A stretch of 56,368 nt of DNA, taken from positions 1 to 56,368 of the IMG/VR virus record IMGVR_UViG_3300032323_000661. The stretch is one strand, 5' to 3'. This stretch comes from a virus. Each line of letters starts with the position of its first letter. Position 1 is the stretch's first letter. This document shows positions 1 through 56,368 of this stretch, in pieces. The notes beneath the pieces were generated by a model, which was given only the letters and a program-made list of their open reading frames with translations, had not been told where the DNA came from and searched no databases. The position numbers and the translations under genes were made by a program.

Positions 1-123
1 GAACTTCTGGATGTTGTTCGCCGCCTCGCTGGCAGTCAGCGTGTAGCTACCAGTCACTACGGGCTTGGTCAGCACGGTGAATGCGAAATTCGTGCTTACG
101 CCGTAGCCCACCGTGATGTAGGA
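1..123. repeat. Terminal direct repeat, left copy
   Basis: These 123 bases are identical to 56246-56368. The repeat lies inside one open reading frame that reads through the join without a shift. It is most simply the overlap of a circularly closed assembly of a circularly permuted or terminally redundant phage genome. A genuine short terminal repeat cannot be excluded from sequence alone. Confidence 0.95.
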
Positions 124-12302: not shown

Positions 12303-13217
12303 TTAGACGCCGGGGGTACCGTACATCGCACGAGGATCGGTGAAGCCGATGTCGTAACGCTCTGTCGCCTTGTAGCGCATAGAGTCAGTCTCGAAATCGC
12401 CTTCCATCGTCTTCTCCAGAGCGCGACGCATCATCAGCTTCATGCCTTCTGGAGCATCGGTCTGGACCCACCACGCGTTGGGGTTAGTCAGACGGGACAG
12501 AACAGCGGCACCTTCGTCCAGCAAGCCGATAGACTTGACGGGGTTGATGTCGTTGTTGGCTGTACCGGCACGCAGCACGGACTTCAGGAGCACTTCGGCT
12601 TGGAACACGTTGCCCGGGGCGACCACCAGCTGGCGGGGCACCAAACGGATACGCTTGCCGTTGTTGTCCACCGCTTGACGGATCTGGATCAACATCTGCT
12701 CCAGCGAGGTCTGCGACAGGTTAGCCGCAGTGCCCAGCAAGTTGGAGAAGGTGCCGTTCACGATCGGGTGAGAAGCGGAGTTCAACTGCACGCCGTCGCC
12801 ACCGGGGAAGGAGGCGTTGAAAGCGCGGTTCAACACGTTGGCGGCGAGTGTTTCCTTGGTCTCGATCAGGGACTGAGCAAGGTGCTTGGCGTACACTTGG
12901 CCGATACGGATGTGGTCGCCGTCTTCCACGAGCACTTTTGTCAAGGCGAAGGCGAGGCCATACACCGAGTAGACGTAGCGCTTGAGGAACAACACACCAC
13001 CTTGCTGGTACGACACTGGAGTGCCGTCCGGCAGCTGGGGGGCTGCACCGAAACCGTACAGGACGGGTTCTTCGTGGTAGTTACGTGGGATGCCCTGCTC
13101 TTCACGGAAGACACGGGACCACTCGTCTTTACGCTGATCATACACGCCATCGAAGCACTCATTCAGAATGGGTTCGACGATGGAACGGAAGTCAGTACTG
13201 CGCATTGGGGCTGCCAT
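12303..13217 (-). CDS. Major capsid protein
   Basis: A 304-aa protein beginning MAAPMRSTDFRSIVEPILNE. It lies directly downstream of scaffold and decoration-type genes, has an excellent ribosome site (GGAGGG) and is followed by a stem-loop. Features match a phage capsid fold: an N-terminal arm, an E-loop-like segment (VSYQQGGVLFLKRYVYS), a long helix containing AKHLAQSLIETKETLAANVL, and a P-domain-like stretch (RLVPRQLVVAPGN). It ends RYDIGFTDPRAMYGTPGV. The length suits an HK97-fold coat protein without a fused scaffold. Confidence 0.85.
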   Translation of the reverse strand: MAAPMRSTDFRSIVEPILNECFDGVYDQRKDEWSRVFREEQGIPRNYHEEPVLYGFGAAPQLPDGTPVSYQQGGVLFLKRYVYSVYGLAFALTKVLVEDGDHIRIGQVYAKHLAQSLIETKETLAANVLNRAFNASFPGGDGVQLNSASHPIVNGTFSNLLGTAANLSQTSLEQMLIQIRQAVDNNGKRIRLVPRQLVVAPGNVFQAEVLLKSVLRAGTANNDINPVKSIGLLDEGAAVLSRLTNPNAWWVQTDAPEGMKLMMRRALEKTMEGDFETDSMRYKATERYDIGFTDPRAMYGTPGV

Positions 13218-21700: not shown

Positions 21701-22064
21701 CAAACGGGTCGGCCAGCACCATCTCGGCGTGCGGCTCCAGTCCCGTCTGCCCTGCACGCTTTTGCGCGTAGTAATCGGCCACACGCTTTTGCGGCGTGAC
21801 GAACAAGTCTGGCGCTGCACCACCCTCACCCGCGAAGCCTCGATAAAAGCCCTGCAGCATGCGCTGCTCGGGTGCACGCTCCAGCGCTTGGCGGCGCATT
21901 TCGGCCTCGATCTGCTCGGGCGTGACCGGTGCACGGGGCTGAATGTCGCGTGTGTGCTTCGAGGCGTCCGCTGCATCTGCGGCCTTGTTCAGCGCAGAAC
22001 GGGCTGCGAATTCCTCGCGCAGCGCGGCCAGCGCACCACGGGCGATTTGGGCTTTAGACGGCAT
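18738..22064 (-). CDS. 1108-aa protein between terminase and portal, PcfJ-like segment
   Basis: A multidomain protein of unknown function. About residues 70-150 (QGFYRGFAGEGG, DLFVTPQKRVADYYAQKR, EMVLADPFAGRAYG) hint at an ADP-ribosyltransferase-like domain; this is speculative. Residues 170-200 carry KGGSVAMFDKGG motifs. Around residue 700, MGHCVGGYC with IFSPRDAKGEPHVTVEV and VQIKGKQNRRP matches the recalled PcfJ-like family. The C-terminus ends EYGFEP. It overlaps the large terminase by 11 bases and probably enters the virion. Its size is unusual for this slot. Confidence 0.7.
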   Translation of the reverse strand: MPSKAQIARGALAALREEFAARSALNKAADAADASKHTRDIQPRAPVTPEQIEAEMRRQALERAPEQRMLQGFYRGFAGEGGAAPDLFVTPQKRVADYYAQKRAGQTGLEPHAEMVLADPFAGRAYGHSTPGTGKQEPLFTCARKMKESDVVDRTPLYSIGGMVGEHAKRYAKGGSVAMFDKGGRAKKGEPGGAAFGIYPKAGKRSEDKQDREAAKNIPVDLARGFVAGTLGMPGDIESLIRMLPGLDERTVLPTSEDVLKRIPFGSDSPTGRFASGLGILGGGAYTGPGSAARAITSVPGAIKRAGVDFARAAGQPAVNVVKPEGGNWLKGAVQRGTSSLKQYDLPDLFPEIGTPPPNTPENEAINKWIGSNLGNYLQKQMATPSDPVRKLAEEGITHLPDLANRTAEYPTGTLRRTRGRAGFPETGMGESELAKKWENLADESIYTHRAGDIQQAVESGGKLDEAKAAYSAKVAEIDAKMAERMASNGFNEDEAATMLRVMSPKQKAEIVGDEGFYAISRDYERASIDSQGPNAMIAKENPWIAKLDPDAPAYHGDVYDLGFDHVIDVLKEDLATGRIRPEQLNKVSVEQAVRRTYEYDLEKAKQMAEAQIKATEGMPTYKEYPEGFRWIELKAPDVDMSGIRFEKVRDGVRAFDAEGNRLVSPAGYNVFANEEQALMQLRNERARKPLEEALKYEGETMGHCVGGYCPDVMEGRSRIFSPRDAKGEPHVTVEVEPHNPNLESLYAKQNLPELYAKYSADRNKYFNSWPEFLKAEAPELLDATANKIVQIKGKQNRRPNEQYLPFVQDFVKSGEWSDVGDFANTGLYRTDPDSDLALKLKAAGREVPRCLNDEDLTRLTQEFPPEGYMAGGSVKAGVKEGVNLARRSLFGLKPSQDTAGRELVPVQRELDKMQAELNKAEKVAPKVEERTVSIDPGKSSAKVTDTIQKVASTPVSRRTVLKSATGQVLQSALPAQSFADLLKPVEVAKQAAKVVAPTATPFGMPGMIAAGLREGMSESDVAKMILGTYRTMTPEKVERTVGSIKDPTSIMFEEPVGAGRAMMELIGTEGPPITNRGALRYMRHIDPAKYDELRQTAKDIAEYGFEP

Positions 22065-23487
22065 AAGGGTTCACCTTCTTTTCGCGATACTCCTCGTCCA
22101 CGTACTCGGTATCGGGGGCGATGGGGTCAATATTGAGGAAGCCCATATCGCGCAGCAGTCGCAGCGCTTGGGACATGGTGTCGGTCAGGTCGTCGTGCTC
22201 GGCCTCGGGGAAGGAGCACACCTGCGAGACGAGCGGATCTGCCCAGTCGCGGGGCTGACCCTTGTGGACCATCGACTCGGGGATATAGACGCGCCCGTGG
22301 GCAATGATGTTGGCCACGAGGTGCAAGCGCTGGGTCTTGTCGGCGCGTCCCGGGTTGTAGGCCCGCACCGGGATCTGTGCCCGCTGCAGGTCCTGGATGA
22401 TCGAAATGCCCGAGGCCTTGTCCTCCACGAGCACGAGGTCCACCTTTTTGCCGGGTTCGCCGTAGATCGATTTGTACTCTTCCACAATCTTGGGGCGCAG
22501 GTCCGGATACGCGAGGCGGTCCTCCCAGCAGTCGATCAGCATGACACTCATCGGCGCGTCGTCCGATGGCCGGAACACGCCCCACACCGAGCACGCGGTG
22601 GGGTCGTTCGAGGTCTTGTCCGTGTACGCACAATCGTACGACTGCAGGATATAGATGAACTGCGGGAATGGCCGCTCGGCGTCCCACAGGCGAAACCACG
22701 AGCGTTTCACAATGCCGTAGTCTTCCGGATCGATAATCTCGGCGTACAGTTCCTGCCGCCCGATCCGCGTGCCCTCGTACTGCGACACGATCTCGTCGCG
22801 AAACGTCGGCGCGAGGTTGTTAAAGTTCTCGTGCGTCGTGCCCGTAGTCACGAACGTGCGCTCGTCCGAGTACAGGCGTTTGACCAGTGGCACCGGCTTG
22901 GGCGTGGTCGTGACGCACACCCGGGGGCGCTGCCCGAGGCGCAGGCCGAACATTAGGTTCGACCACATGTCCTCGGCGTTGCGGAACTTGGCCAGCTCGT
23001 CCACCCACGCGAGGTCATGCTGGGGGCCACGGAGCGTCTCCGGGTCATTGTCCGAGTATATGGTGGCTATCGCCCCGTTGGGCCACTCCAAGCGCCTCTT
23101 GGACGGCACAAATGTGGGACGCATGGAGGGGTGCGAGATGGCCAGGATGCCCGACTCGCCCTCGATCATCACATCCCGGGCGTCGCCCGCGTCTTCGGCG
23201 ATCAGTGCGATGCGGCCCGCGAGCTTGTTCTCGACGTGGTAGCGCACGAACTCGGCACCACAGCGGGTCTTTCCCCACCCACGACCGGCGAGAATGAGCC
23301 ACGTGGTCCAAAAGGGCTGATCCACCGGGGGCAGCTGGTTCGGGCGTGCCCACGTGGGCCAGTCGTAAAACAGTTCGAGCGCCTCCCGGTCCGATAACTC
23401 TGCGACGAAATCGTGCAGGTTATGCGGGTCGAGTGGTTCACTCTTCGGCTTTCGCCTTCTGCTGGAGCCGCTGGGCAAGGCGATCAC
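22054..23487 (-). CDS. terL: Terminase large subunit
   Basis: The DNA-packaging motor. The ATPase part has Walker A GRGWGKT and Walker B AWVDE. The nuclease part has acidic residues in SYDCAYTDKTSND, VLVEDKASG and AEHDDLTDTMSQA. No ATG is available near the front; the GTG at 23487, preceded by GAGGGA, gives 477 aa and overlaps the small-terminase gene by 50 bases. A TTG at 23517 would add ten residues. Located directly after the small terminase. Confidence 0.92.
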   Translation of the reverse strand: MIALPSGSSRRRKPKSEPLDPHNLHDFVAELSDREALELFYDWPTWARPNQLPPVDQPFWTTWLILAGRGWGKTRCGAEFVRYHVENKLAGRIALIAEDAGDARDVMIEGESGILAISHPSMRPTFVPSKRRLEWPNGAIATIYSDNDPETLRGPQHDLAWVDELAKFRNAEDMWSNLMFGLRLGQRPRVCVTTTPKPVPLVKRLYSDERTFVTTGTTHENFNNLAPTFRDEIVSQYEGTRIGRQELYAEIIDPEDYGIVKRSWFRLWDAERPFPQFIYILQSYDCAYTDKTSNDPTACSVWGVFRPSDDAPMSVMLIDCWEDRLAYPDLRPKIVEEYKSIYGEPGKKVDLVLVEDKASGISIIQDLQRAQIPVRAYNPGRADKTQRLHLVANIIAHGRVYIPESMVHKGQPRDWADPLVSQVCSFPEAEHDDLTDTMSQALRLLRDMGFLNIDPIAPDTEYVDEEYREKKVNPYAV

Positions 23488-24097
23488 GGAGTCCCTCGAT
23501 ATTGATGTTGGAGTCAAGCTGGCCCGAGACAGCGACGTTCACGTCTTTCGCCCGGAATTTCGCGTCGTACCCCATGAGGGTGAATTGCAGGAGGCCATCG
23601 GAGAACTTCTTCACGGTGTCGGTCCGCACGCCTTGATAGAACACCGGCTCGTCGTGCCCCACCACGGCTCGGCGGTAGGCCTCGGCACGCATGGTATCGA
23701 CCATTTCCTCTTGGATCGAGGTCATGATATTGTCGAACAGCTTGTGTTCCGCACGCCAGTTCATGAGCGTCGCCCGATGCACACCGGCACTGGTGTAGGC
23801 GTGACGCAGCGAGAAGGGCGCAGTGTCTGGACCGTCGCGGAATTCGGCGATGATCTGCAGCATCTTGAACGCCTTTGTCTCCTCGTGCTTTTTGAGCGCC
23901 CCGTTGGCCTTTGCCGTCGGATCGTTGCACACCAACGAATGTGGCAGGAGGCACGAATCACTCGGCGGGAACCGCACCCGGTCACGCACGATAGAGTCCA
24001 GCAGCGTTTGCGCGGAGATCCCGGCGCGTCGCTCGAAGTGCTCCAGCGTTTCGGCACCAATCTGGTCGAATGTGGTAAGGTCGTCGTTGAAAGCCAT
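23438..24097 (-). CDS. terS: Terminase small subunit
   Basis: A 219-aa protein starting MAFNDDLTTFDQIGAE. A central helix-turn-helix-like region (AYTSAGVHRATLMNWRAEH) is followed by a conserved helical part (EEMVDTMRAEAYRRAVVG) and a C-terminal oligomerisation tail. It recognises phage DNA and hands it to the large subunit. The -10 box of a good promoter ends 7 bases before the ATG and there is no Shine-Dalgarno site, so translation may be leaderless. Confidence 0.8.
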   Translation of the reverse strand: MAFNDDLTTFDQIGAETLEHFERRAGISAQTLLDSIVRDRVRFPPSDSCLLPHSLVCNDPTAKANGALKKHEETKAFKMLQIIAEFRDGPDTAPFSLRHAYTSAGVHRATLMNWRAEHKLFDNIMTSIQEEMVDTMRAEAYRRAVVGHDEPVFYQGVRTDTVKKFSDGLLQFTLMGYDAKFRAKDVNVAVSGQLDSNINIEGLRDRLAQRLQQKAKAEE

Positions 24098-31177: not shown

Positions 31178-31438
31178 CTACTGTTTGATACGGATCGCCA
31201 CAATATGCGCGTACCCCGCGATATCGGCCCAGGAATCGACCACGTTGGGGTCGCCGTTCAGAATGCGCGATATCTTGTGCTGGATCATGTCGAGCGACTC
31301 GCGCTGATGGGGCAACAGGTTCTGCCACCCGGGTATCAGTCGCATGTAGTCCTTCAAGTCCTGCGCGATATGGGCTTGGTCCGTGAAATCCCCATACTGC
31401 TCACCCCGCTCGGCGGTAATTGCTTCGATGTCTGCCAT
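31178..31438 (-). CDS. DUF6378-like protein
   Basis: An 86-aa protein: ERGEQYGDFTDQAHIAQDLK, LDMIQHKISRILNGDP, then VDSWADIAGYAHIV. This linear motif order matches what I recall as DUF6378, a compact helical phage family of unknown function sometimes likened to nucleotide-pyrophosphohydrolase-type bundles. GGAGG lies upstream of the ATG. It is near the Z-DNA genes. Confidence 0.75.
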   Translation of the reverse strand: MADIEAITAERGEQYGDFTDQAHIAQDLKDYMRLIPGWQNLLPHQRESLDMIQHKISRILNGDPNVVDSWADIAGYAHIVAIRIKQ

Positions 31439-31443
31439 TTGCT

Positions 31444-31665
31444 TCAGTCCTCCGTCCGTACTGCTCGCGCATCTTCACGTTCGAACAATTCCAACTGGGC
31501 GCGAGTCACGACCTCCACCGGTGCCCCGGTCGTCGCTTCCGGGTGTTCGCGTGTCGTGAACCGCGTCTTGCACACTATGCACCCGCGGCGGCGCTTTACA
31601 CGCCCGTCCTCGTTCTGGTATGTGGTCAACACCCGTGTGTCTTCCCCGCATTCGATGCATCTCAT
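31444..31665 (-). CDS. NrdR-type zinc-ribbon protein
   Basis: A 73-aa protein starting MRCIECGEDTRVLTT, continuing RRRGCIVCKTRFTTREHPE. These two CxxC pairs and the basic RVKRRRGC stretch closely follow the N-terminal zinc ribbon of bacterial NrdR, the repressor of ribonucleotide reductase genes. The ATP-cone that normally follows is absent. It overlaps the gene before it in the datZ-mazZ-purZ run and could bind host nrd operators. Confidence 0.75.
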   Translation of the reverse strand: MRCIECGEDTRVLTTYQNEDGRVKRRRGCIVCKTRFTTREHPEATTGAPVEVVTRAQLELFEREDARAVRTED

Positions 31666-31856
31666 TGCATTTGTCCTTTCACTTCTTGCGCTGCGAATTG
31701 CAGCGATTGCGCCAGTTCCGCGTAGTCGCGGGGGTGCACATGCACGAACTCAATCCCAGCGGTCGGCGAGTTCTGCACGAGGATGACGCCCGTTCCGTAC
31801 ATGAGAGCATCAACCACGGCTTTCTCGGTGACCTGCGCCAGATCGGTCGGGTTCAC
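31662..31856 (-). CDS. 64-aa protein coupled to datZ
   Basis: Starting at the GTG that overlaps the datZ stop (GTGA), it reads MNPTDLAQVTEKAVVDALMYG and contains GVILVQNSPTAGIEFVHVHP. Small alpha/beta protein, no recognised family. Confidence 0.6.
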   Translation of the reverse strand: MNPTDLAQVTEKAVVDALMYGTGVILVQNSPTAGIEFVHVHPRDYAELAQSLQFAAQEVKGQMQ

Positions 31857-32416
31857 AGCCAGCCCCCGTGGATATTGATCTCGGCGCACACTTCGCGCAC
31901 CCCGGCACGCACCCGCAACTCGGGCCACTGCTTCTCGATGGTGTCCACCATTGTGGCGAGAATCCGACGCATACCGTCGAGCACCTCCAGCGCGTGCTGG
32001 CCATAGCCGTTGTCCTGCAGGAAGAAAATCGCCTCGATCTGGTCCGCGAGCTTCACGATCGCTTCGATCTCGGTCCCTTCCGATTGCCGCATCGAGCCCG
32101 AGTGGTCACGGTCCACGAGGTCCTCGGCACGCTCGACGACACCGGGTCCGGCGACCTTTTCGAGTTCGCGCTTAAATGGTGTGGGGATATCGCCCGTACG
32201 CACCTCGATCAAGTCGTGCGAGAGCGCGTTCTGCAGCAGCTGGAGCCGGAGACGGTCGTGCAGCAAGCCCTTGTAGCCCATCGAGGCGGCGAGCGAGCCC
32301 GCAATGACCGCAACCGCAAAGGAGTGTTCGGCCAGTGTCTGCTGGCGGTGCGTTTGTACGATGTGCCAGCGTTTCACATGGCAAGCGCGGAGTTGTTCGT
32401 AGGTGGTGAGGCTCAT
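31853..32416 (-). CDS. datZ: dATP triphosphohydrolase (HD domain), DatZ
   Basis: Expected to hydrolyse dATP to deoxyadenosine and triphosphate, emptying the dATP pool so that dZTP is used. The 187-aa protein has the HD-domain metal ligands H31 (TLAEHSFAV), H67-D68 (ALSHDLIEV) and D125 (VKLADQIEA), with spacing close to that of the characterised cyanophage S-2L enzyme. TGDIPTPFK follows the HD pair as in YfbR-like nucleotidases. The ATG overlaps the previous stop (ATGA). Clustered with mazZ, purZ and dpoZ. Confidence 0.88.
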   Translation of the reverse strand: MSLTTYEQLRACHVKRWHIVQTHRQQTLAEHSFAVAVIAGSLAASMGYKGLLHDRLRLQLLQNALSHDLIEVRTGDIPTPFKRELEKVAGPGVVERAEDLVDRDHSGSMRQSEGTEIEAIVKLADQIEAIFFLQDNGYGQHALEVLDGMRRILATMVDTIEKQWPELRVRAGVREVCAEINIHGGWL

Positions 32417-32628
32417 GAGGTAATCGCTTGAAGGCGACGAATGCGGTCGGCCACTGCGTCGCCGGTCATTTCGTCGAAGATTTGAAATTCGAATTGGCGG
32501 GCTGCGGTTTCGAGTGCGTCGTTCCACACTCGACGGATGGCATTCCGATTCTCGGGGTCATCGTGCCCCTCGTATTGCGCGAACGCGGTATTGTACCACG
32601 CATCGAAGGGTTTATTCCGATCCGACAT
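32413..32628 (-). CDS. 71-aa protein between mazZ and datZ
   Basis: Starts MSDRNKPFDAWYNTAFAQYE and is helical (RRVWNDALETAARQFEF). The ATG at 32628 has AGGAT upstream and lies inside the end of mazZ. The stop overlaps the datZ start. No known function; a helper in the Z pathway is possible only by position. Confidence 0.6.
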   Translation of the reverse strand: MSDRNKPFDAWYNTAFAQYEGHDDPENRNAIRRVWNDALETAARQFEFQIFDEMTGDAVADRIRRLQAITS

Positions 32629-33115
32629 GGCGCATAATCCTCGTGTTCGAGTCCACCGTCCACGAACGGGTCTCGTTAATGTCCATTTTCTCCTCCACCG
32701 CTTTATGCACATCGATGCCGTTCTTGTGCGCGACGTCCAGCAGCAGGATCATGATGTCGCCCATTTCGAGAGCCGCCTTTGGATTACGCGCATATTCGCC
32801 GACTTCTTCATAGAGCTTGAGTAGAATATCGGCTGTAGTCCTATTAGGGAAGTTCGCGTCCGCCCATTTCGTGATGCGGTCCTGTAATTGGCATATATCT
32901 GCACCGCCTCTCTTTTTGTAGGCGTTGACTGCTCGCACTGTAAGATCCGCATTCCGGTCGCAATTGGCGAGAACACCCTTGAGGTGGTGACGAACTTCGA
33001 AAGACGCGACGGCAGCGCCGGTCGCATCGACAACGACCGCCCCATTTGTCGGGGAGACCGCCCACGGTGTTGCGTTCTCATGGTCAGTATGTACGGTTGA
33101 TTCAACTTGCAGCAT
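32612..33115 (-). CDS. mazZ: MazG-like nucleotide pyrophosphohydrolase, MazZ
   Basis: Expected to convert (d)GTP to (d)GMP, the substrate of PurZ. The C-terminal domain (about 80-155 of 167 aa) has the MazG acidic motif: KLYEEVGEYARN followed by ALEMGDIMILLLDVA, i.e. ExxE then ExxD. An N-terminal extension of about 70 residues (WAVSPTNGAVVVDATG, NADLTVRAVNAYKKRGG) is not part of the core fold. ATG 33115 has AAGGAG 8 bases upstream and overlaps the end of purZ. Confidence 0.85.
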   Translation of the reverse strand: MLQVESTVHTDHENATPWAVSPTNGAVVVDATGAAVASFEVRHHLKGVLANCDRNADLTVRAVNAYKKRGGADICQLQDRITKWADANFPNRTTADILLKLYEEVGEYARNPKAALEMGDIMILLLDVAHKNGIDVHKAVEEKMDINETRSWTVDSNTRIMRHVGSE

Positions 33116-34217
33116 TGCGGCACTCCTTCCAGTATTGTACGATTTTTTGCATGCGTTCGGCACGATCGCCGTTTATCTGGCGCACGTCGTGGTATCCCGG
33201 CCCCACCCCGATCCAGCGCACTTGCGTGTCTTTGCGTTCGATCGCTTGCACGATGTCGATCAGCTCCACCTCGTTGCGCACGTAGTTCACGAAATTGAGG
33301 AACACCTCGAACACGCCGTTGTGCCGAATCGCCTCCTCGATCTGTCGGCCCGAGAACGTGAAAATCCGGCGCGGCAGCTTCGTCACCGTGGTGAGTTCGG
33401 TCTTTTGCCCGATGTCCTCGAATGCGATCTCCACCTGATCATTGTAGCACGGGCCGGAGTATCCGACCTGCGTCCCAGTTTCGTCGAATCGGTTAGCCAC
33501 ACGGATCGGGTAGGTGCGGCAGGTGCCGAGTGCGCGGACCTTGCAGACGCGGTACTTGTCGAGCACGTCGGCGGCTTGGATGCCGGAGTCGGCCAGGATC
33601 TGCCACAGCGACACATCGCGGGAAGTCGTGTAGGGGTAGAATCCATGGTACATCGACAGCTCGTAGCCCTGCGCTCCCTCGACCAGCACGTATTCGGAAT
33701 CCTTGAGCGCTTGGCGGTACTCGTCGGTAGTGACCACGTACGGACCGAGCACATCGATGAAATTCGCCGCAATGTTCTGGTCGTCCGGGTCGCGCCGGAT
33801 ACGCTGCACCATTGCTGCGCCCACGCCCTTTTTGGTCGAGCCGATCTTAGTCATGGGTCCCGCCTCTTCCTCGATGTGGCGGTCGGTCACAATGGCGGCG
33901 TGCGGGTGGATGAGGATGTCGATATTCTTGTGGATGATGATATCGCGGCACTGCTCGATCTCGGCCAGCAGCCGGGACGGGTTGATCAGCGAGCCCGGGC
34001 CGAGGAACACGCGACGGACTGCGGGTCCCACGATGCCGTTGGCGAGGTGTGTGTGAATGAACTTGCGCCCGTTCTTGTCGATGTACGTGTGCCCCGCATT
34101 TGGTGCCCACGCAGTCACAATCGCGTCGTACGGGCCATTCTCGGCAAGGTAGCCCACGAGGAGGCCCTTGCCGGTGCTGCCGTATTGAAGATCTACGATG
34201 ACGTCTACTTTTTCCAT
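33102..34217 (-). CDS. purZ: 2-aminoadenylosuccinate synthetase, PurZ
   Basis: Condenses dGMP with aspartate to give N6-succino-2-amino-dAMP, which host PurB would split to dZMP. The 371-aa protein is a PurA homologue: P-loop-like GSTGKG at residues 13-18, APNAGHTYID near 40, GSTKKGVG, VLVEGAQGYELS and KVRALGTC. In cellular PurA the first motif is GDEGKG with a catalytic Asp; here Ser14 occupies that place, the substitution reported for PurZ. AGGAG precedes ATG 34217. Confidence 0.93.
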   Translation of the reverse strand: MEKVDVIVDLQYGSTGKGLLVGYLAENGPYDAIVTAWAPNAGHTYIDKNGRKFIHTHLANGIVGPAVRRVFLGPGSLINPSRLLAEIEQCRDIIIHKNIDILIHPHAAIVTDRHIEEEAGPMTKIGSTKKGVGAAMVQRIRRDPDDQNIAANFIDVLGPYVVTTDEYRQALKDSEYVLVEGAQGYELSMYHGFYPYTTSRDVSLWQILADSGIQAADVLDKYRVCKVRALGTCRTYPIRVANRFDETGTQVGYSGPCYNDQVEIAFEDIGQKTELTTVTKLPRRIFTFSGRQIEEAIRHNGVFEVFLNFVNYVRNEVELIDIVQAIERKDTQVRWIGVGPGYHDVRQINGDRAERMQKIVQYWKECRNAAS

Positions 34218-34233
34218 TATTACTCCTGTTGTG

Positions 34234-36072
34234 TTAACCTTTAGCTTCGTACCAATCGTCCCCGATACCCCAGTCGCACGTGATCGGCACGCGCAACGCG
34301 ATCGGGCATTCTACACCGTCGAATGTGGTGTAAATCCGTGCTATCTCCTCCGCGTGCTGCAGACAGTCGGTGTCGAGCGAGATATCCACCTCGTCGTGAA
34401 CCGACAGCAGCAACCGCCCCCAGCCCTCGCTGCGAAGCTTGCGGTGCAACTCGATAAGCTTAATCTTCATGCAGTCGGCGCTGGTCGCTTGGTAGATCAG
34501 TCCCGACGCCTTGTGCACGAACCGCCCACCCGGGAACCGGATGTGTCTGCCCATCATCGAATGCACGTACCCGCGCTCTTTCGCGATGCCCGACGCCTTG
34601 ATCTGGTTGTTGCGCATACCCGGGTTCGCCGCGTGGTACTTGTCGAACAGCGCCAGCGCCTCGGGTCCGGCCTTGAGGTAAACGTTGCCGTTCGGCCCCT
34701 CCTCCTCGGTGTACGGCAAGCCGCACTCCTGCGCCAGCCGTCCGGAGCCCATGTTAAAGGCGAGTCCGAGGTTGATCGCCTTGGAGGACGGACCCCCGGC
34801 GTACTGCGCGTTGCGGGGAATGCCGGTCATGTCGGAGACCAGCTGGTGGAAATCCAGTTGCGGGTTCTTGCGGTAGGCCTCTAGAATCGCGGGTACTTGA
34901 CCGTAATGATTAGCCACTCGGAATTCGAATTGCGACCAATCAAGGCCCAGCCATTTCGCACCATAATCCGCCTTAAAAATCGGACGAACCAGCGATTTAA
35001 TAGCGACGTCTCTACTCGGGATCTGCTGCAGAGCGGGATTTGTAATAGAAAGCCGCCCGGTTCCCGTTCCAGCTTCAGAGTCATTTTTGGTCTGGTTGTA
35101 GTTGCAGTGAATGATGCCGTCGTGTTGATGCCCAAGGATGTGCCCCGACAGGAAGGTGTCGCGGGTCTTGAGCATCTTGCGAAGGTCCAGGATTTGCTTT
35201 GCCGCTGGGTGCCGCATGCGGCGCAGACAGTCGGCGTTGATGGACGCCTTGCCCCCGTCGGTCTTGTCGGCCCGGGTGCCGTCAATCAGATACCATTCAT
35301 TGTCCGCACCGAGCTTGGGTTGAAACAGCTGTGCGATTGAACCGGAGGGGTTCGGATTGACCTCGAAGCCCGCCATGGTATTGAGATCGCGCTGGAATTC
35401 GTCGATGCGAACGGTGAGGCTCCGGATGGCCTTCTCGGCCAGCTCCACGTCCACCCGCACTCCCTCGGTCTCCATGTCGATAATCACCGGCTGCAGATCG
35501 CGCTCCAGCTGGTGAACCCGGCGCAGGTTCTGGCGCTCCATTTCGCCGCACTGCCATTCGTACAGTGCCCGGGTGACCACCGCGTCTTGCACAGCGTACT
35601 TGGATACCACGTGCACGGGGGCTCGCGATATGTTCGGCATCTGCGCGTTCCGCGTCGCCCGCCCACCGAAGAGCTTGGCCATTTCCTCGTAGATCTCGTC
35701 GTCCTTCTTCGCACCGCAGTATTTGCGGGCCAGGAAGTCGAGCGTGTAGGTCGGCTCGTGCTCGTTGATCAGCGCAGCACGAATCATCGTGCAGTCCAGC
35801 TGCTCGGGAGGCAGTAGAACGCCGCCTTCGCGCAGAAAGTGGTAGTCGAATTTAATGTTGTGCCCGATCCACTCGCCCACGCGACCCTCGCGGATCAGGT
35901 CGTTGAACCACTCGACAATACGGGGCTCCTCGCGTACGTCCCAGTAGTACCCGCCTTCTTCCCCGGGCAACGCGATGGAAATCCCGAATACACGGTCTTC
36001 CCACCACTTGAGCCCAGTTGTCTCGGTGTCGATCACGCAGTACGGGACCGAATCAATACGGGGAACTCGCAT
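34234..36072 (-). CDS. dpoZ: Family A DNA polymerase, DpoZ type
   Basis: Replicative polymerase of 612 aa with an N-terminal 3-prime to 5-prime exonuclease (D15 and E17 in VIDTETTGL; GHNIKFDYHFL near 70-80; VQDAVVTRALYE near 165) and a PolI-type polymerase domain: motif A LGLDWSQFEFRV (~370), motif B SSKAINLGLAFNMGSG, motif C SVHDEVD (~555). There is no 5-prime nuclease domain. Position beside purZ is that of DpoZ in aminoadenine phages, where it favours dZTP over dATP. The start lies 3 bases after the SSB-like stop. Confidence 0.92.
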   Translation of the reverse strand: MRVPRIDSVPYCVIDTETTGLKWWEDRVFGISIALPGEEGGYYWDVREEPRIVEWFNDLIREGRVGEWIGHNIKFDYHFLREGGVLLPPEQLDCTMIRAALINEHEPTYTLDFLARKYCGAKKDDEIYEEMAKLFGGRATRNAQMPNISRAPVHVVSKYAVQDAVVTRALYEWQCGEMERQNLRRVHQLERDLQPVIIDMETEGVRVDVELAEKAIRSLTVRIDEFQRDLNTMAGFEVNPNPSGSIAQLFQPKLGADNEWYLIDGTRADKTDGGKASINADCLRRMRHPAAKQILDLRKMLKTRDTFLSGHILGHQHDGIIHCNYNQTKNDSEAGTGTGRLSITNPALQQIPSRDVAIKSLVRPIFKADYGAKWLGLDWSQFEFRVANHYGQVPAILEAYRKNPQLDFHQLVSDMTGIPRNAQYAGGPSSKAINLGLAFNMGSGRLAQECGLPYTEEEGPNGNVYLKAGPEALALFDKYHAANPGMRNNQIKASGIAKERGYVHSMMGRHIRFPGGRFVHKASGLIYQATSADCMKIKLIELHRKLRSEGWGRLLLSVHDEVDISLDTDCLQHAEEIARIYTTFDGVECPIALRVPITCDWGIGDDWYEAKG

Positions 36073-36075
36073 GGC

Positions 36076-36357
36076 TCAGAACGGGATGTCGTCGGACTCA
36101 ATACCCCCGAAGCTTGGGCGCTCCATGCGCTGCACCCCACCACCGCTGGCCGGAGCCTGTGACTCTTTGCGGTTGAGCTTGATGGAGAAGTACTTTTTGC
36201 CTTCCATCTTGCCACCGGGCTTGCCCTCGTTCACCCACGCGGAGAGCCAGTAATCTGTGCCCTCGACGTTGATCGAGCCGGAGAATTCCGGGTGCTTGTC
36301 CGTCTTGCGGTTCTCGTTGCGGGCCATCATGCCCGAATTGGTGTTGTCGTATGCCAT
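36076..36357 (-). CDS. SSB-like single-strand DNA-binding protein
   Basis: A 93-aa protein starting MAYDNTNSGMMARNENR. It has a small beta domain (HPEFSGSINVEGTDYWLSAW, KKYFSIKLNRKE) and a C-terminal tail ending ESDDIPF, which mimics the DDDIPF tip of bacterial SSB that recruits repair and replication proteins. It lies directly upstream of the polymerase. The fold assignment is by pattern. Leader GATAGAGGACC precedes ATG 36357. Confidence 0.65.
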   Translation of the reverse strand: MAYDNTNSGMMARNENRKTDKHPEFSGSINVEGTDYWLSAWVNEGKPGGKMEGKKYFSIKLNRKESQAPASGGGVQRMERPSFGGIESDDIPF

Positions 36358-36433: not shown

Positions 36434-37849
36434 TTACAATGGGTAGGGGTTGTGGCCCTCCACAATGTCGAGTTGCCGCTTGGCGCGAGTCATACCGACG
36501 TACCAGACGCGAATCTCGTCGTCGGGCGATTTCTCGGCACTTTGCGCCACTCGGGTGGTCATGTCCGTGAGAAGAATGACGCGATCGGCCTCGTGACCTT
36601 TCGCAGCATGGATTGTAGAAAGCCGGATCGTGGGGATGGATTCCAAGTCAGCGTCTCGGTAAAAGTCCACGGCTCGCCCGGGGATGTTGAGTGCAACGTA
36701 GAAGGGTCGAGCATATACCGATTTGTAGTCGTTGGCCTCAAGGAATCCCCGAGTGGAGGCAGTGGCACAATTGAAGAGCGAATTTCGCTCTCCGTCAGTG
36801 ATCTGCTCGCCCCTTTCAAGCTTGCGGAATACGCGAATAGCGGCTGCGTATTTGTTCTGGTACATCCCCGGGCGTCCCGATTCGCGCACGTACGGGATGC
36901 GTTCTTCAATGAGCGATTGCTCAACTTCGCGAAGCACTGAATGCGTCCGTCCCAGTAAAAGTATATCCTCTCCATGTGTGATGTCCACGGAGTGAATCGA
37001 CCCGAATAGGCGGACCAGTCCCAAATCCGGGCGGGGACTAAAGTCCTTGTCCACTCGGAGAGCAACGCGACGGATGAGGTCTTGAGATTTCGCGTGGATT
37101 GCAGCAGGAAGTCGATGCGAGAGCGAGAGCACATGGCTATCACCCTGATGCTTCTGCGTGAATCTTGCCATACCGTGTGCATCCGCACCGGCCCACGTAT
37201 AAATCGCCTGATCATCGTCCCCTGCGATATGCACTTCGTGAGCACGTCGGCAGAGCTCCTCGATAACACGCCACTGAAGAGGTGATAAGTCTTGAGCTTC
37301 ATCGACAAATACGACTTCGGCATCTCCACGCATGCCGCCCCGAGCGGCTCGCTCAAGCATGTCGGTAAAGTCGTAAAAGCCATACGTAGATTTCCACTCA
37401 GCGTATGCCCGTACGAACGCATTGAACTCGGCGCGGGTTCCCGGCCTATCCGAGACGTCATATACTTCATCCGGATGGGAGAAGGTGTTGCGGGCATAGT
37501 TAAGTAGGTCAAGGTAGAAGTCTCCATCGGCACGCTCCTCATCGTCTTCGGGTGATTTCCCAATAATCGGAATCCCCATCACCGTGGAGAACTCCCGCAG
37601 TTTCATCGAATCCACCACCTGCGCCTGTCGCATATTCATCGATCGAAATGCCATGGCGTGGATGGTGGATACGTTGTCGGACCGCTTAAGACCGAGCCTG
37701 GACAGAGCCTCCGAGGCGGCGGCACGGGTGAACGACACGAAGGCGACGCGTTCGGCCTGAACGCCTGAATTCCTCGTGTGCTGCACCCGCCGCAGCATCT
37801 CGGTGGTCTTGCCGGTGCCCGGAGGCCCGTAGAGCGCGTGGACTTGCAT
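36434..37849 (-). CDS. SF1 DNA helicase (UvrD/Rep-like)
   Basis: A 471-aa ATP-driven helicase. Motif I is YGPPGTGKTTEM (residues 7-18), motif II VDEAQDLSPLQW, motif III GDDDQAIYTWAGADAHG and motif VI VWYVGMTRAKRQL near the C-terminus. It is smaller than host UvrD, lacking large 1B/2B insertions, like phage Dda-type enzymes. The ATG at 37849 overlaps the previous stop (TAATG), with GAGG upstream. Confidence 0.9.
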   Translation of the reverse strand: MQVHALYGPPGTGKTTEMLRRVQHTRNSGVQAERVAFVSFTRAAASEALSRLGLKRSDNVSTIHAMAFRSMNMRQAQVVDSMKLREFSTVMGIPIIGKSPEDDEERADGDFYLDLLNYARNTFSHPDEVYDVSDRPGTRAEFNAFVRAYAEWKSTYGFYDFTDMLERAARGGMRGDAEVVFVDEAQDLSPLQWRVIEELCRRAHEVHIAGDDDQAIYTWAGADAHGMARFTQKHQGDSHVLSLSHRLPAAIHAKSQDLIRRVALRVDKDFSPRPDLGLVRLFGSIHSVDITHGEDILLLGRTHSVLREVEQSLIEERIPYVRESGRPGMYQNKYAAAIRVFRKLERGEQITDGERNSLFNCATASTRGFLEANDYKSVYARPFYVALNIPGRAVDFYRDADLESIPTIRLSTIHAAKGHEADRVILLTDMTTRVAQSAEKSPDDEIRVWYVGMTRAKRQLDIVEGHNPYPL

Positions 37850-38208
37850 TAGCCTCGGTGCGTGATGCCACGAACGGCCCACATGCTGGCGGTCTCGGCG
37901 TTGGTGATGGCCACGGAGAACATGCGTTGCACTTCGGCGTCGTGGTAGGAGTCGCGCAGCACCAACAGGTACGTAATTGCTGCGTCGAAATGCTGCTTCG
38001 TCTGTTTCACGCGACGTATCTCGTCTTGAGACAAGGGAACATGCAGCGTCACCGACTCCTGCTCCCTCGCGGGTGCTGGGTCCGGCGTGGGCGCTGCGGC
38101 CACCACGGGTTGCGGGGATTGCACCGCGCTCTCGCTGGGCATGTCGCTGGGCATTGCCTTGAAATCGTCGTGCGGTACGGTCGTATCGGTAGTCTTTTTG
38201 GTCGCCAT
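37849..38208 (-). CDS. Acb2-like small helical protein (possible anti-CBASS)
   Basis: A 119-aa protein. The first 55 residues are disordered and Pro/Ala-rich. The C-terminal 65 residues form a predicted helical hairpin (VPLSQDEIRRVKQTKQHF, then AITNAETASMWAVRGIT) whose layout and ending match the recalled Acb2/Tad1 hairpin domain (DUF7681). Acb2 proteins sequester cyclic nucleotides and block CBASS defence. This is an inference from motif memory. ATG 38208 has AAGGA upstream. Confidence 0.5.
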   Translation of the reverse strand: MATKKTTDTTVPHDDFKAMPSDMPSESAVQSPQPVVAAAPTPDPAPAREQESVTLHVPLSQDEIRRVKQTKQHFDAAITYLLVLRDSYHDAEVQRMFSVAITNAETASMWAVRGITHRG

Positions 38209-39023: not shown

Positions 39024-39051
39024 ATAACCGGGGCCGAAGCCCCGTGGTTAT
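39024..39051 (-). terminator. UUCG-capped hairpin between replication genes
   Basis: Minus strand: a GGGGC/GCCCC stem with TTCG loop, extended by ATAACC/GGTTAT pairing after a 2-base bulge. It begins at the stop of the 39051 gene. No U-tract follows, so an RNA-stability or attenuation role is as likely as termination. Confidence 0.6.
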
Positions 39052-39803
39052 CAATATTCGGAGTCTGCGGTCTCTGCCACTTCACCGTCGTAGTCGTTCG
39101 ACACCTTCACGCCACCTGCGCGGATGGTCTCGTACAGCTTCTCGGCACGGTCGTACACGTCTTTGCTCACGAACCCGAGTGGTGCGATCGCGAAGTTGTG
39201 GTACGATTCGTTGCGAGCGTTCGTCTCGGTTGCCGCCGACAGCTTGTAGGCACGGGCGAACGAGTCGGTTTGCGTCATGCGGATCAACGAGTTCCAGCGC
39301 TTGGAGACTTTCATTTTGGACTTGGCCATCGAGATCACCGCCTCCTGCCACTCGCCCCCGTAGTTCACGAGCACGAAATGCTGTGCGGTGTCGGAGACTT
39401 CGAGGCCTTCTTCACCCAGCTGCGCGATTGTGTCGCGAGCCAGTGCCTCAGTGGCGAATGCTCCACGGAAACCGTTGCTGCCACCACCCCCGGCTTTGCG
39501 GTCCTTCCACACGAGGAATTGCTTGGTGTAGTACACCGGCACAACTGTGACCGCCTCGCCATACAGCTGGCGCGTGACGTTGTTGTACAGCATACCCTCG
39601 TCGGCCCCTTCAATGTACGCCGGATCGTTCTTTTTGCGCGCTGGCGACAGCGCCTGAATCAGTTCGATTCGGGGGATAATCATGTCGTCGGTGGTGACGT
39701 TCTCGGCTCCGCGAGCTTGGCCCTGCTTGAGCCATTCCGGAATTTCGTTAGTCATTACTTCGAACGATTGCTCTTGTACTGCTACTGCTTGGTTCTTTGC
39801 CAT
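39051..39803 (-). CDS. Conserved replication-module protein, 250 aa
   Basis: Starts MAKNQAVAVQEQSFEVM. It contains DDMIIPRIELIQALSP, MLYNNVTRQLYGEAVTVVPV, KQFLVWKDRK and a helical C-terminal part (SFARAYKLSAATETN). This type of protein is common beside single-strand-binding, helicase and nuclease genes in phages, but I know no demonstrated function. ATG 39803 with AGGAG is preferred to an upstream start lying inside a hairpin. Confidence 0.7.
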   Translation of the reverse strand: MAKNQAVAVQEQSFEVMTNEIPEWLKQGQARGAENVTTDDMIIPRIELIQALSPARKKNDPAYIEGADEGMLYNNVTRQLYGEAVTVVPVYYTKQFLVWKDRKAGGGGSNGFRGAFATEALARDTIAQLGEEGLEVSDTAQHFVLVNYGGEWQEAVISMAKSKMKVSKRWNSLIRMTQTDSFARAYKLSAATETNARNESYHNFAIAPLGFVSKDVYDRAEKLYETIRAGGVKVSNDYDGEVAETADSEY

Positions 39804-39823
39804 TTCTGGACTCCTAGTTACAT

Positions 39824-39861
39824 GCACGCGAGGCGTGCGGGGTTATCCGGCAGGATTGCCG
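39824..39861. other. Two adjacent hairpins upstream of the 39803 gene
   Basis: GCACGC-GAG-GCGTGC (39824-39838) and CGGCA-GGAT-TGCCG (39848-39861). Together with the tRNA-like fold next to them they fill the 149-base gap between two genes. Confidence 0.6.
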
Positions 39862-40750: not shown

Positions 40751-40780
40751 ATTATACACTACACGAGTGTTCCGAGTAAC
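40751..40780 (-). promoter_or_regulatory. Probable promoter after the SF2 helicase
   Basis: Minus strand -10 TATAAT (40756-40751) followed by the GATAGAGGACC leader of the 40721 gene. The -35 region (GTTACT or TTACTC) is poor and overlaps the helicase 3-prime end. Confidence 0.5.
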
Positions 40781-42492
40781 TTACCGGTAGAACGATCGTT
40801 TATGCTCGTGCGAATGAACTCCGATACGTCCTTCTTGCTCTTGAGCGCTTCAATCACGGTCTCGTCCACAGTGCCCTCGGCCACCAAATCGATGTAGGTT
40901 ACACTCCGCGTCTGCCCGATCCGGTGCGCCCGGTCCTCGGACTGCTCGCGGTCGGTGAACGAGAACGAGTTGGAGTAATACACGACGAGCTCGGCGGCGG
41001 TCATGTTGAGACCCACGCCACCGGTGGCCGCGTTGCCCACGATGAACCTCGCCTTCTTGGTCTGGAACTTGTCCGACACGTTCGCCCAGCGTGTGTCCTC
41101 GTCGATCGCTCCGTACACCTGCACGACAGAACTCGGCCCGTACTTCTCGACAAGCGCCTCGGTCACCATCTGGATCTCTTCGATGAACCGGCACCAAATG
41201 ATCGTGCTGCACTCGGTCTCTTCCACGATCGACATTAGCTCCTCGATCTTTGCGTTCTTGCCGGGAATCCGTACATGATCGAATTTCGAGGGGTTGTGGA
41301 CGTCCGGGTTGCGTTCCCACGTTGCCACTCCTCCTGCGATTTCTTGGAGTCGGAGCATTTTTTCGAGCATTGTGGTGACGGTGATTCCTCGATCTCCCAT
41401 GACCGCTTTGTCACGCTTAGCAATTTCGCGATATATTCTTTTCTGTTCATCATTGAGTTGCACTGTTCTGGTTTCGAACACTTTCGGCGGCAATTCGGTC
41501 AGCACCTCCGACTTGCGCACTTGGAACGTGAAGGGCGCGAGCAATTCGGTCAGCTCCGCCATGTTCTGGTAGCCCACGACCTGCCGTTGCTCGTACCCGC
41601 CCATGATCGCGTAGCGGTTACGGAACGAGTAGAAATCGCCGATCCCGATGATATTCGGGTCGATGAACTCGAACTGCATGAACACGTCCATAGGTCCGTT
41701 GGCCACAGGGGTGCCGGTCATAATCACCCGGTAGTTCGCCGACAGCCCGAGCTTGACGCAATTCTTGGACCGTACCGCCGAATGGGTCTTGATCATGTGC
41801 GCTTCGTCCACGATCATTCCCACCCGAGTGCTGCAGCCGACGAACTTTTGCGCCAGCAGCGTCGCACCACCAGCGGCGAGCGATTCGGTGCCCACGATCA
41901 GGAATTTAAGGCCTCGGCTCGTGTCGGTGTTCCACGCCTCGAACACCTTGGGTTTGCTGGTGTCGAGCACAAGCACGTCGGTCTCGACCGGGCAGTGAAT
42001 CCCGATCTCGGCCTCCCAGTTGCGGCGCGTCGAGAACTTGGTCACCACGAGCACCCGGTCCACCTTGCCGTCGACGAAATACGCCGAGAACAGGTCGAGC
42101 GACGTCTTGGTCTTGCCGGTGCCCATGTCCATGTAGAACGCGAACCCTGGCTTGCCCCATGCACAATCGAGCGCTCGGCGCTGGTATCCCCTCGGCTCCG
42201 TCTTGAACGGGTACAGGGGTGGGAACGGATTTAGACGGGCGGCAGCCTTTTCGATAGTGCGAGTTGCAGCCTCGCGAGCTGGGCCTGTGAAAACGTCAGC
42301 ACCAAAATTGCTGAGCAGAAACTCGCTATTAGCGCGTAATGCAGGAGCTGTCCACACGCGGCGACGAGCATCCCAACGCCGATTAGGCACCGCACGCACC
42401 TTGTCCACCATCCAAGGAGGAGTCTCGATAATGAAGCGCGAGGTCTTGGCATCGTAGTCAATCTTAATATTCGGAGCGGAAGACGGGTTCAT
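40759..42492 (-). CDS. SF2 helicase of the SNF2/SMARCAL1-like type
   Basis: A 577-aa DNA-dependent ATPase. The N-terminal WDARRRVWTAP region resembles a HARP-like substrate-recognition segment. Helicase motifs: I YMDMGTGKTKTSL, II VDEAHMIKTHS, III MTGTPVANG, V VGLNMTAAE, VI SEDRAHRIGQTRS. Such enzymes in phages drive branch migration, fork remodelling or origin melting. It follows the primase with a 29-base overlap. GAGG precedes the ATG. Confidence 0.9.
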   Translation of the reverse strand: MNPSSAPNIKIDYDAKTSRFIIETPPWMVDKVRAVPNRRWDARRRVWTAPALRANSEFLLSNFGADVFTGPAREAATRTIEKAAARLNPFPPLYPFKTEPRGYQRRALDCAWGKPGFAFYMDMGTGKTKTSLDLFSAYFVDGKVDRVLVVTKFSTRRNWEAEIGIHCPVETDVLVLDTSKPKVFEAWNTDTSRGLKFLIVGTESLAAGGATLLAQKFVGCSTRVGMIVDEAHMIKTHSAVRSKNCVKLGLSANYRVIMTGTPVANGPMDVFMQFEFIDPNIIGIGDFYSFRNRYAIMGGYEQRQVVGYQNMAELTELLAPFTFQVRKSEVLTELPPKVFETRTVQLNDEQKRIYREIAKRDKAVMGDRGITVTTMLEKMLRLQEIAGGVATWERNPDVHNPSKFDHVRIPGKNAKIEELMSIVEETECSTIIWCRFIEEIQMVTEALVEKYGPSSVVQVYGAIDEDTRWANVSDKFQTKKARFIVGNAATGGVGLNMTAAELVVYYSNSFSFTDREQSEDRAHRIGQTRSVTYIDLVAEGTVDETVIEALKSKKDVSEFIRTSINDRSTGKLLGTLV

Positions 42493-44026
42493 CGATTTTT
42501 ACCTCATGCTCTTCAGTAATAGGGGCGTACCAGACGTTAATAACCTTGCCGCCCGGAATTCGCATCTTGTCGTGGTCCGCCCCACAGTCGCGGCGCAACG
42601 CGATCCACAAATCCATGCCGTGCAGCACCTCGGCCTTGTTGCGCTTGAGGAACTCCGAGAATGCGGTGCCTTTGAACACCACACACCGGACGCCGTTGAC
42701 CACCTGCACTATCGGAATGTTCCGGGTCAGCGCCTTGCGGTCTTCGGTATTGGTGCCCTCGGACGCGAGGTCGGCCTTCTGCACGAACTCGGTGAACTTG
42801 GCGGCGATCACACCCGAAGCGGACGCCTCCTTAGGCACTTCGACGACACGGAGATTGGGAACCAGCGGGTCGAGTACGCGCCGACGCCACGACTCCTGCG
42901 AGATCTTGGGGATATTGATCTTAATGCGCTCGAAGATCAGGTTACCCATAGCGGCGGGGTCGCGCAGCACGATGGTAGGAATGTTCGAGATCAGGTGCCC
43001 GTTGACGTGCAAGCCCCAGCGCGGCGGGTCCGATTGATACTCGATCAGGTCCGTGAACTGCGGCAGCGAGTCCTGCGCGTCCAGGTCTTTAGCCTCGTCC
43101 ATCGAGATACCGAACTCGCGGGTAACGCACACCTTGCGATCGCACAGGCTCTTGCAGGGGTCCTCGGAGCACTTGTACAGGTAATCGCGGCGCGATGCCG
43201 AGCGGATCACCTTCTTAGCCTCAGCCGGTCCCAGCGGCTTGTCGAACATTGTCTTGTTCAGCGCCATCGCGTCGCCAAAGAACGTGTCGGGACGGGCACG
43301 CTTGAGGTACACCACCACGTTGTACATGGAGTCGTTCCGAGAGCCGGACTCGACCCCGGTGTGGATCATCTTCTGGATACACGGTGGCGCTTCGAGGTGC
43401 TCGCGTGTCGCCATCGCTTGCAGCTGTTCGACCGTCACCCGCTTGGACTGCGCCATTTGCACGAACAGCTCGAACGAGATCCGCTCGCCCTTCTCGTTCA
43501 CCGCGTACCGCACCGTATCCTCGACGTTGAAGTAGCACAGATTAATCCAGTTACCCAGCGATTTCTCGCCACTGGAAGTCACCAGCGAATCCTGCTTGGG
43601 GAATATGTCCACGTGCGTTTTAATCTGGAGCATGTCGCGCCAGCTGTTCAGGAGCCGGATCACGAGCTTGGCCGGGAGGTAGTCCTGCCCGAACAGGTAC
43701 AGATGGCACCCGCCCGATTTGGAACGCGTCGGCACAAGCGGGAGCCGGTACTGCTCGATCTTGGTGGCAAGGTCCACGATGTCGATATCGGACCCGTCCG
43801 ACCCTTTACCGTGGTTGTCCACGTCGATACACCCGAACTTGCAGGTGCCGCCGTCGGTCACGGGGACTACCCCTAGACCCATGCGCCCGGACAGGTGCGC
43901 GGCGTAATGCTCTTCCGTGACTTCTGCCTTCTCCGTTACCATATTACCGGTACTGGGGTCCCACTGGCCGTAAGACCGCAGGTTCCCGGAGAACAGATCG
44001 GCGAAGTCTTTAACTAGACTCGTCAT
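42464..44026 (-). CDS. Archaeo-eukaryotic-type primase (TOTE/PrimPol-like)
   Basis: A 520-aa protein. The N-terminal half has the catalytic acidic pair in GCIDVDNHG (near residue 70) and SKSGGCHLYLF with the basic/His residue expected of the TOTE-type AEP primase fold. A Cys cluster (YKCSEDPCKSLCDRKVC) in the middle should bind zinc. It would make primers and might also polymerise DNA. First gene of the replication module; ATG 44026 with GAGGA upstream is chosen over a longer frame that runs into the promoter. Confidence 0.8.
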   Translation of the reverse strand: MTSLVKDFADLFSGNLRSYGQWDPSTGNMVTEKAEVTEEHYAAHLSGRMGLGVVPVTDGGTCKFGCIDVDNHGKGSDGSDIDIVDLATKIEQYRLPLVPTRSKSGGCHLYLFGQDYLPAKLVIRLLNSWRDMLQIKTHVDIFPKQDSLVTSSGEKSLGNWINLCYFNVEDTVRYAVNEKGERISFELFVQMAQSKRVTVEQLQAMATREHLEAPPCIQKMIHTGVESGSRNDSMYNVVVYLKRARPDTFFGDAMALNKTMFDKPLGPAEAKKVIRSASRRDYLYKCSEDPCKSLCDRKVCVTREFGISMDEAKDLDAQDSLPQFTDLIEYQSDPPRWGLHVNGHLISNIPTIVLRDPAAMGNLIFERIKINIPKISQESWRRRVLDPLVPNLRVVEVPKEASASGVIAAKFTEFVQKADLASEGTNTEDRKALTRNIPIVQVVNGVRCVVFKGTAFSEFLKRNKAEVLHGMDLWIALRRDCGADHDKMRIPGGKVINVWYAPITEEHEVKIDEPVFRSEY

Positions 44027-55829: not shown

Positions 55830-56368
55830 TAGAACACCCCACCGGAGATACCCCCGATAAAGTTCCCTGTACCCGGTGACCTAATTCCGGTGGTGTTCAC
55901 CTCCAGCATCAGATTCCCGAGGACGGTAATACCGAACTGGCCAAGGCCCACACGGTACACACCGGTGTTGGTCTCCAGCGCGAACTGCAAAGAGGGCGAT
56001 CCGACGTTGCCGTCGGTCAGCTGGATCACCGTCGCACCGGCTTGGAAGGTGTTCGCGTTCAGGAAGTTAGTGCCATCGCAAATCAGCGTAGCTTGCCCTC
56101 CGGGCGGGATCTGCGCCGTAGCGCTTCCGACGACCCCGGTGGTTACGGTCAGGGTGCGGCCACCCGCCACCGTCTGGTTCGAGATCACGTACAGGTTCAC
56201 CACGGGTGGGTAGTTGACCACTACGTTACCGGTGAGAGTGCCCGTGAACTTCTGGATGTTGTTCGCCGCCTCGCTGGCAGTCAGCGTGTAGCTACCAGTC
56301 ACTACGGGCTTGGTCAGCACGGTGAATGCGAAATTCGTGCTTACGCCGTAGCCCACCGTGATGTAGGA
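55829..56368 (-). CDS. Tail-associated structural protein, C-terminal part (cut by window edge)
   Basis: C-terminal part of the 412-aa protein that begins at 822 on the other side of the join; the first 41 codons here duplicate the end of that piece. Contains TGSYTLTASEAANNIQKFTG and a repeated beta-type section, and ends GTGNFIGGISGGVF, with NTGVYRVGLGQFGITV resembling fibre C-terminal segments that present the variable tip. Unrecognised family. Confidence 0.8.
   Translation of the reverse strand, partial: SYITVGYGVSTNFAFTVLTKPVVTGSYTLTASEAANNIQKFTGTLTGNVVVNYPPVVNLYVISNQTVAGGRTLTVTTGVVGSATAQIPPGGQATLICDGTNFLNANTFQAGATVIQLTDGNVGSPSLQFALETNTGVYRVGLGQFGITVLGNLMLEVNTTGIRSPGTGNFIGGISGGVF
56246..56368. 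repeat. Terminal direct repeat, right copy
   Basis: Identical to bases 1-123; see left copy. Marks the closure point of a unit of about 56,245 bp. Confidence 0.95.

Follow-up and report, generated by a model that had tools for sequence, protein, structure and literature searches.

A probable 2-aminoadenine (Z) genome cassette joined to a virion module common to non-Z phages in an uncultivated phage lineage

The window analysed here, i.e., the whole stretch of 56,368 nucleotides of the IMG/VR record IMGVR_UViG_3300032323_000661, carries between positions 31853 and 36072 four genes that a sequence-only reading had taken for the complete phage pathway replacing A by 2-aminoadenine (Z). This locus raises two questions, namely whether these genes really encode the Z enzymes and whether the genome that carries them is Z-DNA. 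The Z gene set itself is already known, its enzymes have been characterised in other phages, and the pathway was reportedly published in Science papers of 2021 as well. The pathway, the gene cluster and the polymerase DpoZ are described in PMC8342488, PMC8065100, PMC8599892 and PMC12884076. At least seven groups of Z phages have been counted (PMC12884076), and the main text of that paper makes no mention of Caulobacter phages or metagenomes; the lineage of the window appears to be a further group beyond those given there. What is new is the complete genome of an uncultivated lineage that joins a Z/replication cassette to a virion module common to non-Z phages.

The Z locus and the residues of its enzymes

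The four Z genes form a single run, as had been proposed, all on the minus strand and abutting or overlapping. The first, dpoZ (34234-36072), encodes a family A DNA polymerase of 612 amino acids with a 3'-5' exonuclease, of the DpoZ-2 (phiVC8-like) type. It is followed by purZ (33102-34217), encoding a 2-amino-2'-deoxyadenylosuccinate synthetase of 371 amino acids, by mazZ (32612-33115), encoding a MazZ-1 dGTP diphosphohydrolase of 167 amino acids that matches PF04447 (DUF550), by an ORF of 71 amino acids (32413-32628, minus strand) that overlaps both of its neighbours and is not among the genes named in the sequence-only reading, and by datZ (31853-32416), encoding an HD-domain dATP triphosphohydrolase of 187 amino acids. 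Because purZ and mazZ overlap by 14 bp, mazZ and the 71-amino-acid ORF by 17 bp, and this ORF and datZ by 4 bp (ATGA), the layout suggests one translationally coupled operon. Upstream of dpoZ, on the same strand, lie genes for a single-strand DNA-binding protein (SSB; 36076-36357, phrog_7364, with its ATG at 36357) and for the UvrD/PcrA-type helicase of the cassette (36434-37882, PF00580), which is 40% identical to its PMBT28 homologue in an equivalent relative position. The order DpoZ-PurZ-MazZ-DatZ and the strand are kept in 63/63 environmental loci (all those retrieved from IMG/VR in which the four genes occur together), so the neighbourhood of the four genes is not due to chance. Downstream of datZ, a small protein with an NrdR-type zinc ribbon (PF22811) alone, devoid of the ATP-cone (31444-31665), is kept in the lineage.

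The best PDB match of the polymerase is 7pbk (E 9e-135), which we take to be the DpoZ of phiVC8. Alignments served to locate the residues that PMC8599892, PMC8342488 and PMC8065100 give as diagnostic for DpoZ, PurZ, MazZ and DatZ. The polymerase of the window has F459 (helix O), L455 and G548, together with R161 and M165 (E2 helix); its exonuclease residues D26/E28/D85 and the HD of motif C are intact, and near the active site it carries each of the three DpoZ-2 insertions, the third being shorter than that of phiVC8. F459, the sole change common to both known DpoZ clades, is found with L455 and G548 in all 66 environmental relatives with an aligned polymerase. In HTVC023P and DSL-LC04, related phages without Z, PolA has Y at position 459 and N at position 548, as it does in E. 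coli, and the PolA of both phages is devoid of insertions 2 and 3. Position 583, which is E and not S, as in phages SH-Ab 15497 and PMBT28, is not diagnostic. A tree of 45 polymerases places the protein of the window within the DpoZ-2 group, beside its own lineage. In Ochrobactrum phage OH (L221:2963-4789), in which PurZ and DatZ are present, position 459 of PolA is Ser, insertions 2 and 3 are missing, and the MazG-like protein lacks several MazZ-1 residues; OH may have a third type of Z polymerase, or may have undergone a loss.

The synthetase matches the PurZ structures of phiVC8 (6fko, E 1.7e-79) and S-2L (7odx, E 5.5e-77), as well as phrog_1211, annotated as 2-aminooxy adenylosuccinate synthetase (E 1.9e-84). 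It also matches the Pfam family Adenylsucc_synt, and the neighbouring HD protein matches YfbR, as would be expected if the synthetase were an ordinary PurA or a PurZ0 that had come by chance to lie beside MazG and HD enzymes of a generic kind. Against this stands the Ser of the GSTGKG motif (S-2L position 23), which replaces the catalytic Asp of PurA in the window and in 81/81 relatives. Moreover, T273, N305 and N308 agree with PurZ and not with PurA or PurZ0; the last two belong to the ATP-type base site, where PurZ has N305 and Q or N at 308, and PurA and PurZ0 have Thr and Asp at positions 305 and 308. In a tree of 60 synthetases, with PurA represented by non-archaeal sequences, the protein falls beside its own lineage within the PurZ clade (100/97), with PurZ0 (100/98) and PurA (100/100) both outside, so that the comparison proposed in the sequence-only reading sets it apart from both; some long branches (OH, MaF61, Eunoia) are unreliably placed. 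Residues and tree contradict a PurA or PurZ0, and with the gene order fixed in 63 loci this alternative has a negligible probability.

Further occurrences of PurZ-like proteins were noted. In Flavobacterium phage MaF61 (168 kb; L217:968-2311), a PurA/PurZ-like protein of strongly diverged sequence has Ser where PurA has Asp, and both of its ATP-base positions are Asn; it groups with the OH PurZ on long branches. Two contigs (L187 and L189) from metagenome-assembled genomes (MAGs) labelled Verrucomicrobia and Gammaproteobacteria carry PurZ with DpoZ and DatZ, and in L187 also MazZ; they probably derive from phages or prophages that were placed in the bins of their hosts. When a chromosomal copy was sought, just three MAG contigs with PurZ-like genes were found, none of them close.

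MazZ matches the S-2L enzyme (7ody, E 4.4e-13). Its metal residues E35, E38, E50 and D53 and its R83 are all present; the E and D residues are found in 74/74 relatives and R83 in 73 of the 74, with one gap. The guanine-specificity residues I56 and D60 are present too. The base pocket differs from that of S-2L in having A for I16, F for N20 and I for A92, differences that are not diagnostic; the three S-2L residues are described as unique to that phage (PMC8342488). DatZ matches S-2L DatZ (6zpa, E 3.5e-19) and phrog_7076, dATP triphosphohydrolase (E 2.9e-29); it retains each tested ligand of metal and phosphate (H34, H66, D67, E70 and D119 are present, as are R19, K81 and K116) and the adenine/deoxyribose selectivity residues W20, I22 and P79. 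Nearly all of the published diagnostic residues tested are present in the four proteins, and the structures that match these proteins best are those of phiVC8 and S-2L enzymes; the sequence-only reading had likewise noted signature residues in them. With several dozen sequences added for DpoZ, PurZ and MazZ, the set of residues associated with the use of Z becomes narrower.

The predicted pathway and the chemistry of the genome

The residues, the trees and the synteny with proven Z phages support the locus as a Z-DNA cassette, and we give a probability of about 94% to a complete cassette that works as proposed and yields virion DNA made of Z:T and G:C pairs. Judging from the characterised homologues of its enzymes, MazZ would convert dGTP to dGMP after infection, and PurZ would condense this dGMP with aspartate into dSMP at the expense of ATP or dATP. 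Host PurB and host kinases would then lead from dSMP to dZTP; a profile search of this genome for PurB (PF00206) and guanylate kinase (PF00625) found neither, which for these two families agrees with the earlier claim that no PurB or nucleotide kinase is encoded. DatZ would destroy dATP, DpoZ would incorporate dZTP in preference to leftover dATP, and the resulting Z:T/G:C genome would resist many host nucleases.

The same genes might instead lower dATP or shift nucleotide pools for another purpose, in a genome that holds A or only partial Z. Base composition cannot reveal Z, and E. coli expressing the S-2L cluster replaced just 12% of A in a plasmid and 4% in the chromosome (PMC8342488). However, a DpoZ with the clade-specific residues adjoins PurZ in 66/66 relatives with an aligned polymerase, and in G020 and W01, two near-complete genomes with the virion module of the window, PurZ and a DpoZ-type polymerase are missing together. 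Furthermore, the genomes of phiVC8, S-2L and SH-Ab 15497, phages that carry all or most of these genes, are ZTGC according to PMC12884076. A pool-shifting role thus seems very improbable, and the genome of the window very probably uses 2-aminoadenine, as far as its genes can tell.

Lineage-specific parts and known Z phages

Two parts of the locus are specific to this lineage, a new N-terminal domain of MazZ and the conserved 71-amino-acid gene. The domain, of about 75 amino acids (from 33115 to about 32890, minus strand), is kept throughout the lineage and absent from the other Z phages aligned. Neither Pfam nor PHROGs gave a match to it, and no PDB structure matches it significantly by itself; AlphaFold predicts beta strands and one helix, and Foldseek searches with the MazZ model gave significant matches to the MazG part only. 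MazZ-1 proteins are known to acquire N-terminal fusions (PMC8342488), and PMC12884076 describes the fusion in SH-Ab 15497 as a DUF5664 domain, different from that of the window. The 71-amino-acid ORF follows mazZ in all 11 lineage loci inspected in the mazZ-datZ gap; it is predicted by AlphaFold to be all-helical, and has no PHROG match and, in a search made with a longer frame, no Pfam match. In most inspected members of the lineage, a variable run of small genes separates this ORF from datZ, the mazZ-datZ gap ranging from 113 to 2194 bp; elsewhere among Z phages, these two genes usually abut or overlap. Another kind of fusion was seen in two distant Z-phage relatives (L073:7625-8398 and L071:11035-11850), in which MazZ is joined to a segment resembling the C-terminal portion of deoxynucleoside monophosphate kinases (phrog_139, E 1.5e-8 and 7e-6; phrog_38514), with no P-loop half seen; this fusion might supply a dZMP kinase function.

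Among known systems, the Acinetobacter and Salmonella siphophages SH-Ab 15497 and PMBT28 have, like the window, the order UvrD helicase, DpoZ, PurZ, DUF550 MazZ and DatZ, with matching primase and SF2 helicase genes upstream, and their PurZ and DpoZ are 45-47% and 47-48% identical to those of the window, respectively. They differ from it in having the SSB gene between dpoZ and purZ and not upstream of dpoZ, and no match to the 71-amino-acid gene was found in them. The podophage phiVC8 (Enhodamvirus) has DatZ, a PurZ 43% and a DpoZ 41% identical to those of the window; in contrast, it has MazZ-2 instead of MazZ-1, a primase gene between dpoZ and purZ, and a genome of about 39 kb. Cyanophage S-2L has purZ-mazZ-datZ in the order of the window and a MazZ of the MazZ-1 type, but this MazZ lacks the N-terminal domain and the phage has a PrimPol and no DpoZ (PMC8065100). 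Burkholderia phage Bm1 (67.5 kb) encodes SSB, DpoZ, PurZ (42% identity over 322 residues), MazZ and DatZ as in the window, with a MazZ that also lacks the N-terminal domain; its Z locus is followed by a DUF6378-like protein, a homologue (48%) of the DUF6378 protein found downstream of the Z genes of the window (31178-31438).

A virion module in common with non-Z phages

The first 123 bp of the window (1-123) are identical to the last (56246-56368); this direct terminal repeat, across whose junction an ORF remains open, indicates that the assembly is complete and that the genome measures 56,245 bp and is either circular or terminally redundant. Megablast with 20 kb of the window against isolated phages gave no DNA-level match. 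At least 24 IMG/VR records hold both PurZ and this portal, to which the more distant G044 can be added, and the lineage is apparently widespread and uncultivated.

Gene-by-gene comparison divides the genome into two modules. The virion module (1-24 kb and 48-56 kb) encodes the major capsid protein (12303-13217, minus strand, phrog_4523), the portal or head-to-tail connector (16208-18700, minus strand, phrog_1216), the large terminase subunit TerL (22054-23517, minus strand, phrog_38), GroES and tail proteins. The replication/Z module (28-44 kb) comprises, besides the UvrD, SSB, DpoZ, PurZ, MazZ and DatZ genes, those for the conserved phrog_2402 protein (39051-39827, minus strand), for a superfamily II DNA helicase (40759-42492, minus strand, phrog_62) and for a primase (42464-44026, minus strand, phrog_21866, E 3.5e-121), whose nearest isolates are Z-siphophages. 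The genes of this replication/Z module have their counterparts in PMBT28 and SH-Ab 15497; in the PMBT28 genome, which is complete, nothing matches the virion genes. The virion module is found in Caulobacter phage RW (proposed Riverwalkvirus) and in MW202545, which have a GroES gene, capsid proteins 77-88% identical to that of the window (RW, 77%; MW202545, 88%), portals 46-61% and TerL 39-48% identical; these phages have their own replication genes, and no homologue of PurZ, DpoZ, MazZ or DatZ was found in them. Similarly, the non-Z relative G020, with a capsid protein 93% identical, has no match to PurZ or a DpoZ-type polymerase. Among the window, its Z relatives and the closest phages lacking Z, the major capsid protein is very strongly conserved, at 88-96% identity, and the portal is at 61-88%.

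Since the two halves differ in their closest isolated relatives, the window could be suspected of being a chimeric assembly, with the replication cassette of a Z-siphophage joined to the virion genes of an unrelated phage. Yet both halves recur in the full-length records compared among the 24 or more cited above, and the 123-bp repeat joins the two ends of the window; independent assemblies and terminal repeat contradict a chimera, to which we leave hardly any probability.

The podovirus-like backbone announced by the sequence-only reading is supported, though not proven, for one half of this genome: portal, TerL and capsid are shared with Caulobacter phage RW and Pelagibacter phage HTVC023P, but the replication half resembles that of siphophages (PMBT28, SH-Ab 15497). 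No tail-tube or tape-measure family was matched among the proteins scanned. A podovirus morphology, with a short non-contractile tail, may go with this gene content.

In the portal tree, the presence of Z requires at least two changes: G044, which is Z+, groups with the Z- phages RW and HTVC023P, apart from the lineage of the window, and its PurZ and DpoZ fall in a different sub-clade from those of the window. G018, a partial contig of 37.9 kb (28 kb of it upstream of the portal) in which neither PurZ nor DpoZ was found, branches just outside the Z+ lineage. These few genomes agree with a gain of the Z cassette within this virion backbone, which is the direction of transfer that we infer. A broader and rather unlikely proposal is that the Z machinery extends to the MazZ N-terminal domain and the 71-amino-acid protein, which would work in the synthesis or control of dZTP, and that the whole cassette would move as a unit, having entered this backbone at least twice (in the lineage of the window and in G044).

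The window thus adds a probable Z-DNA phage lineage on a virion backbone outside those that we found described, and its close relatives devoid of Z genes offer a natural with/without comparison of the demands that Z-DNA makes on capsid, packaging and polymerase. Considered as an indirect sign of Z, the avoidance of A-containing hexamer palindromes is slightly weaker in Z+ phages (observed/expected ratios of 0.76-0.94) than in Z- phages (0.51-0.78, with 0.99 in the AT-rich HTVC023P) among the few, related genomes compared, but GC-only palindromes are avoided in both.
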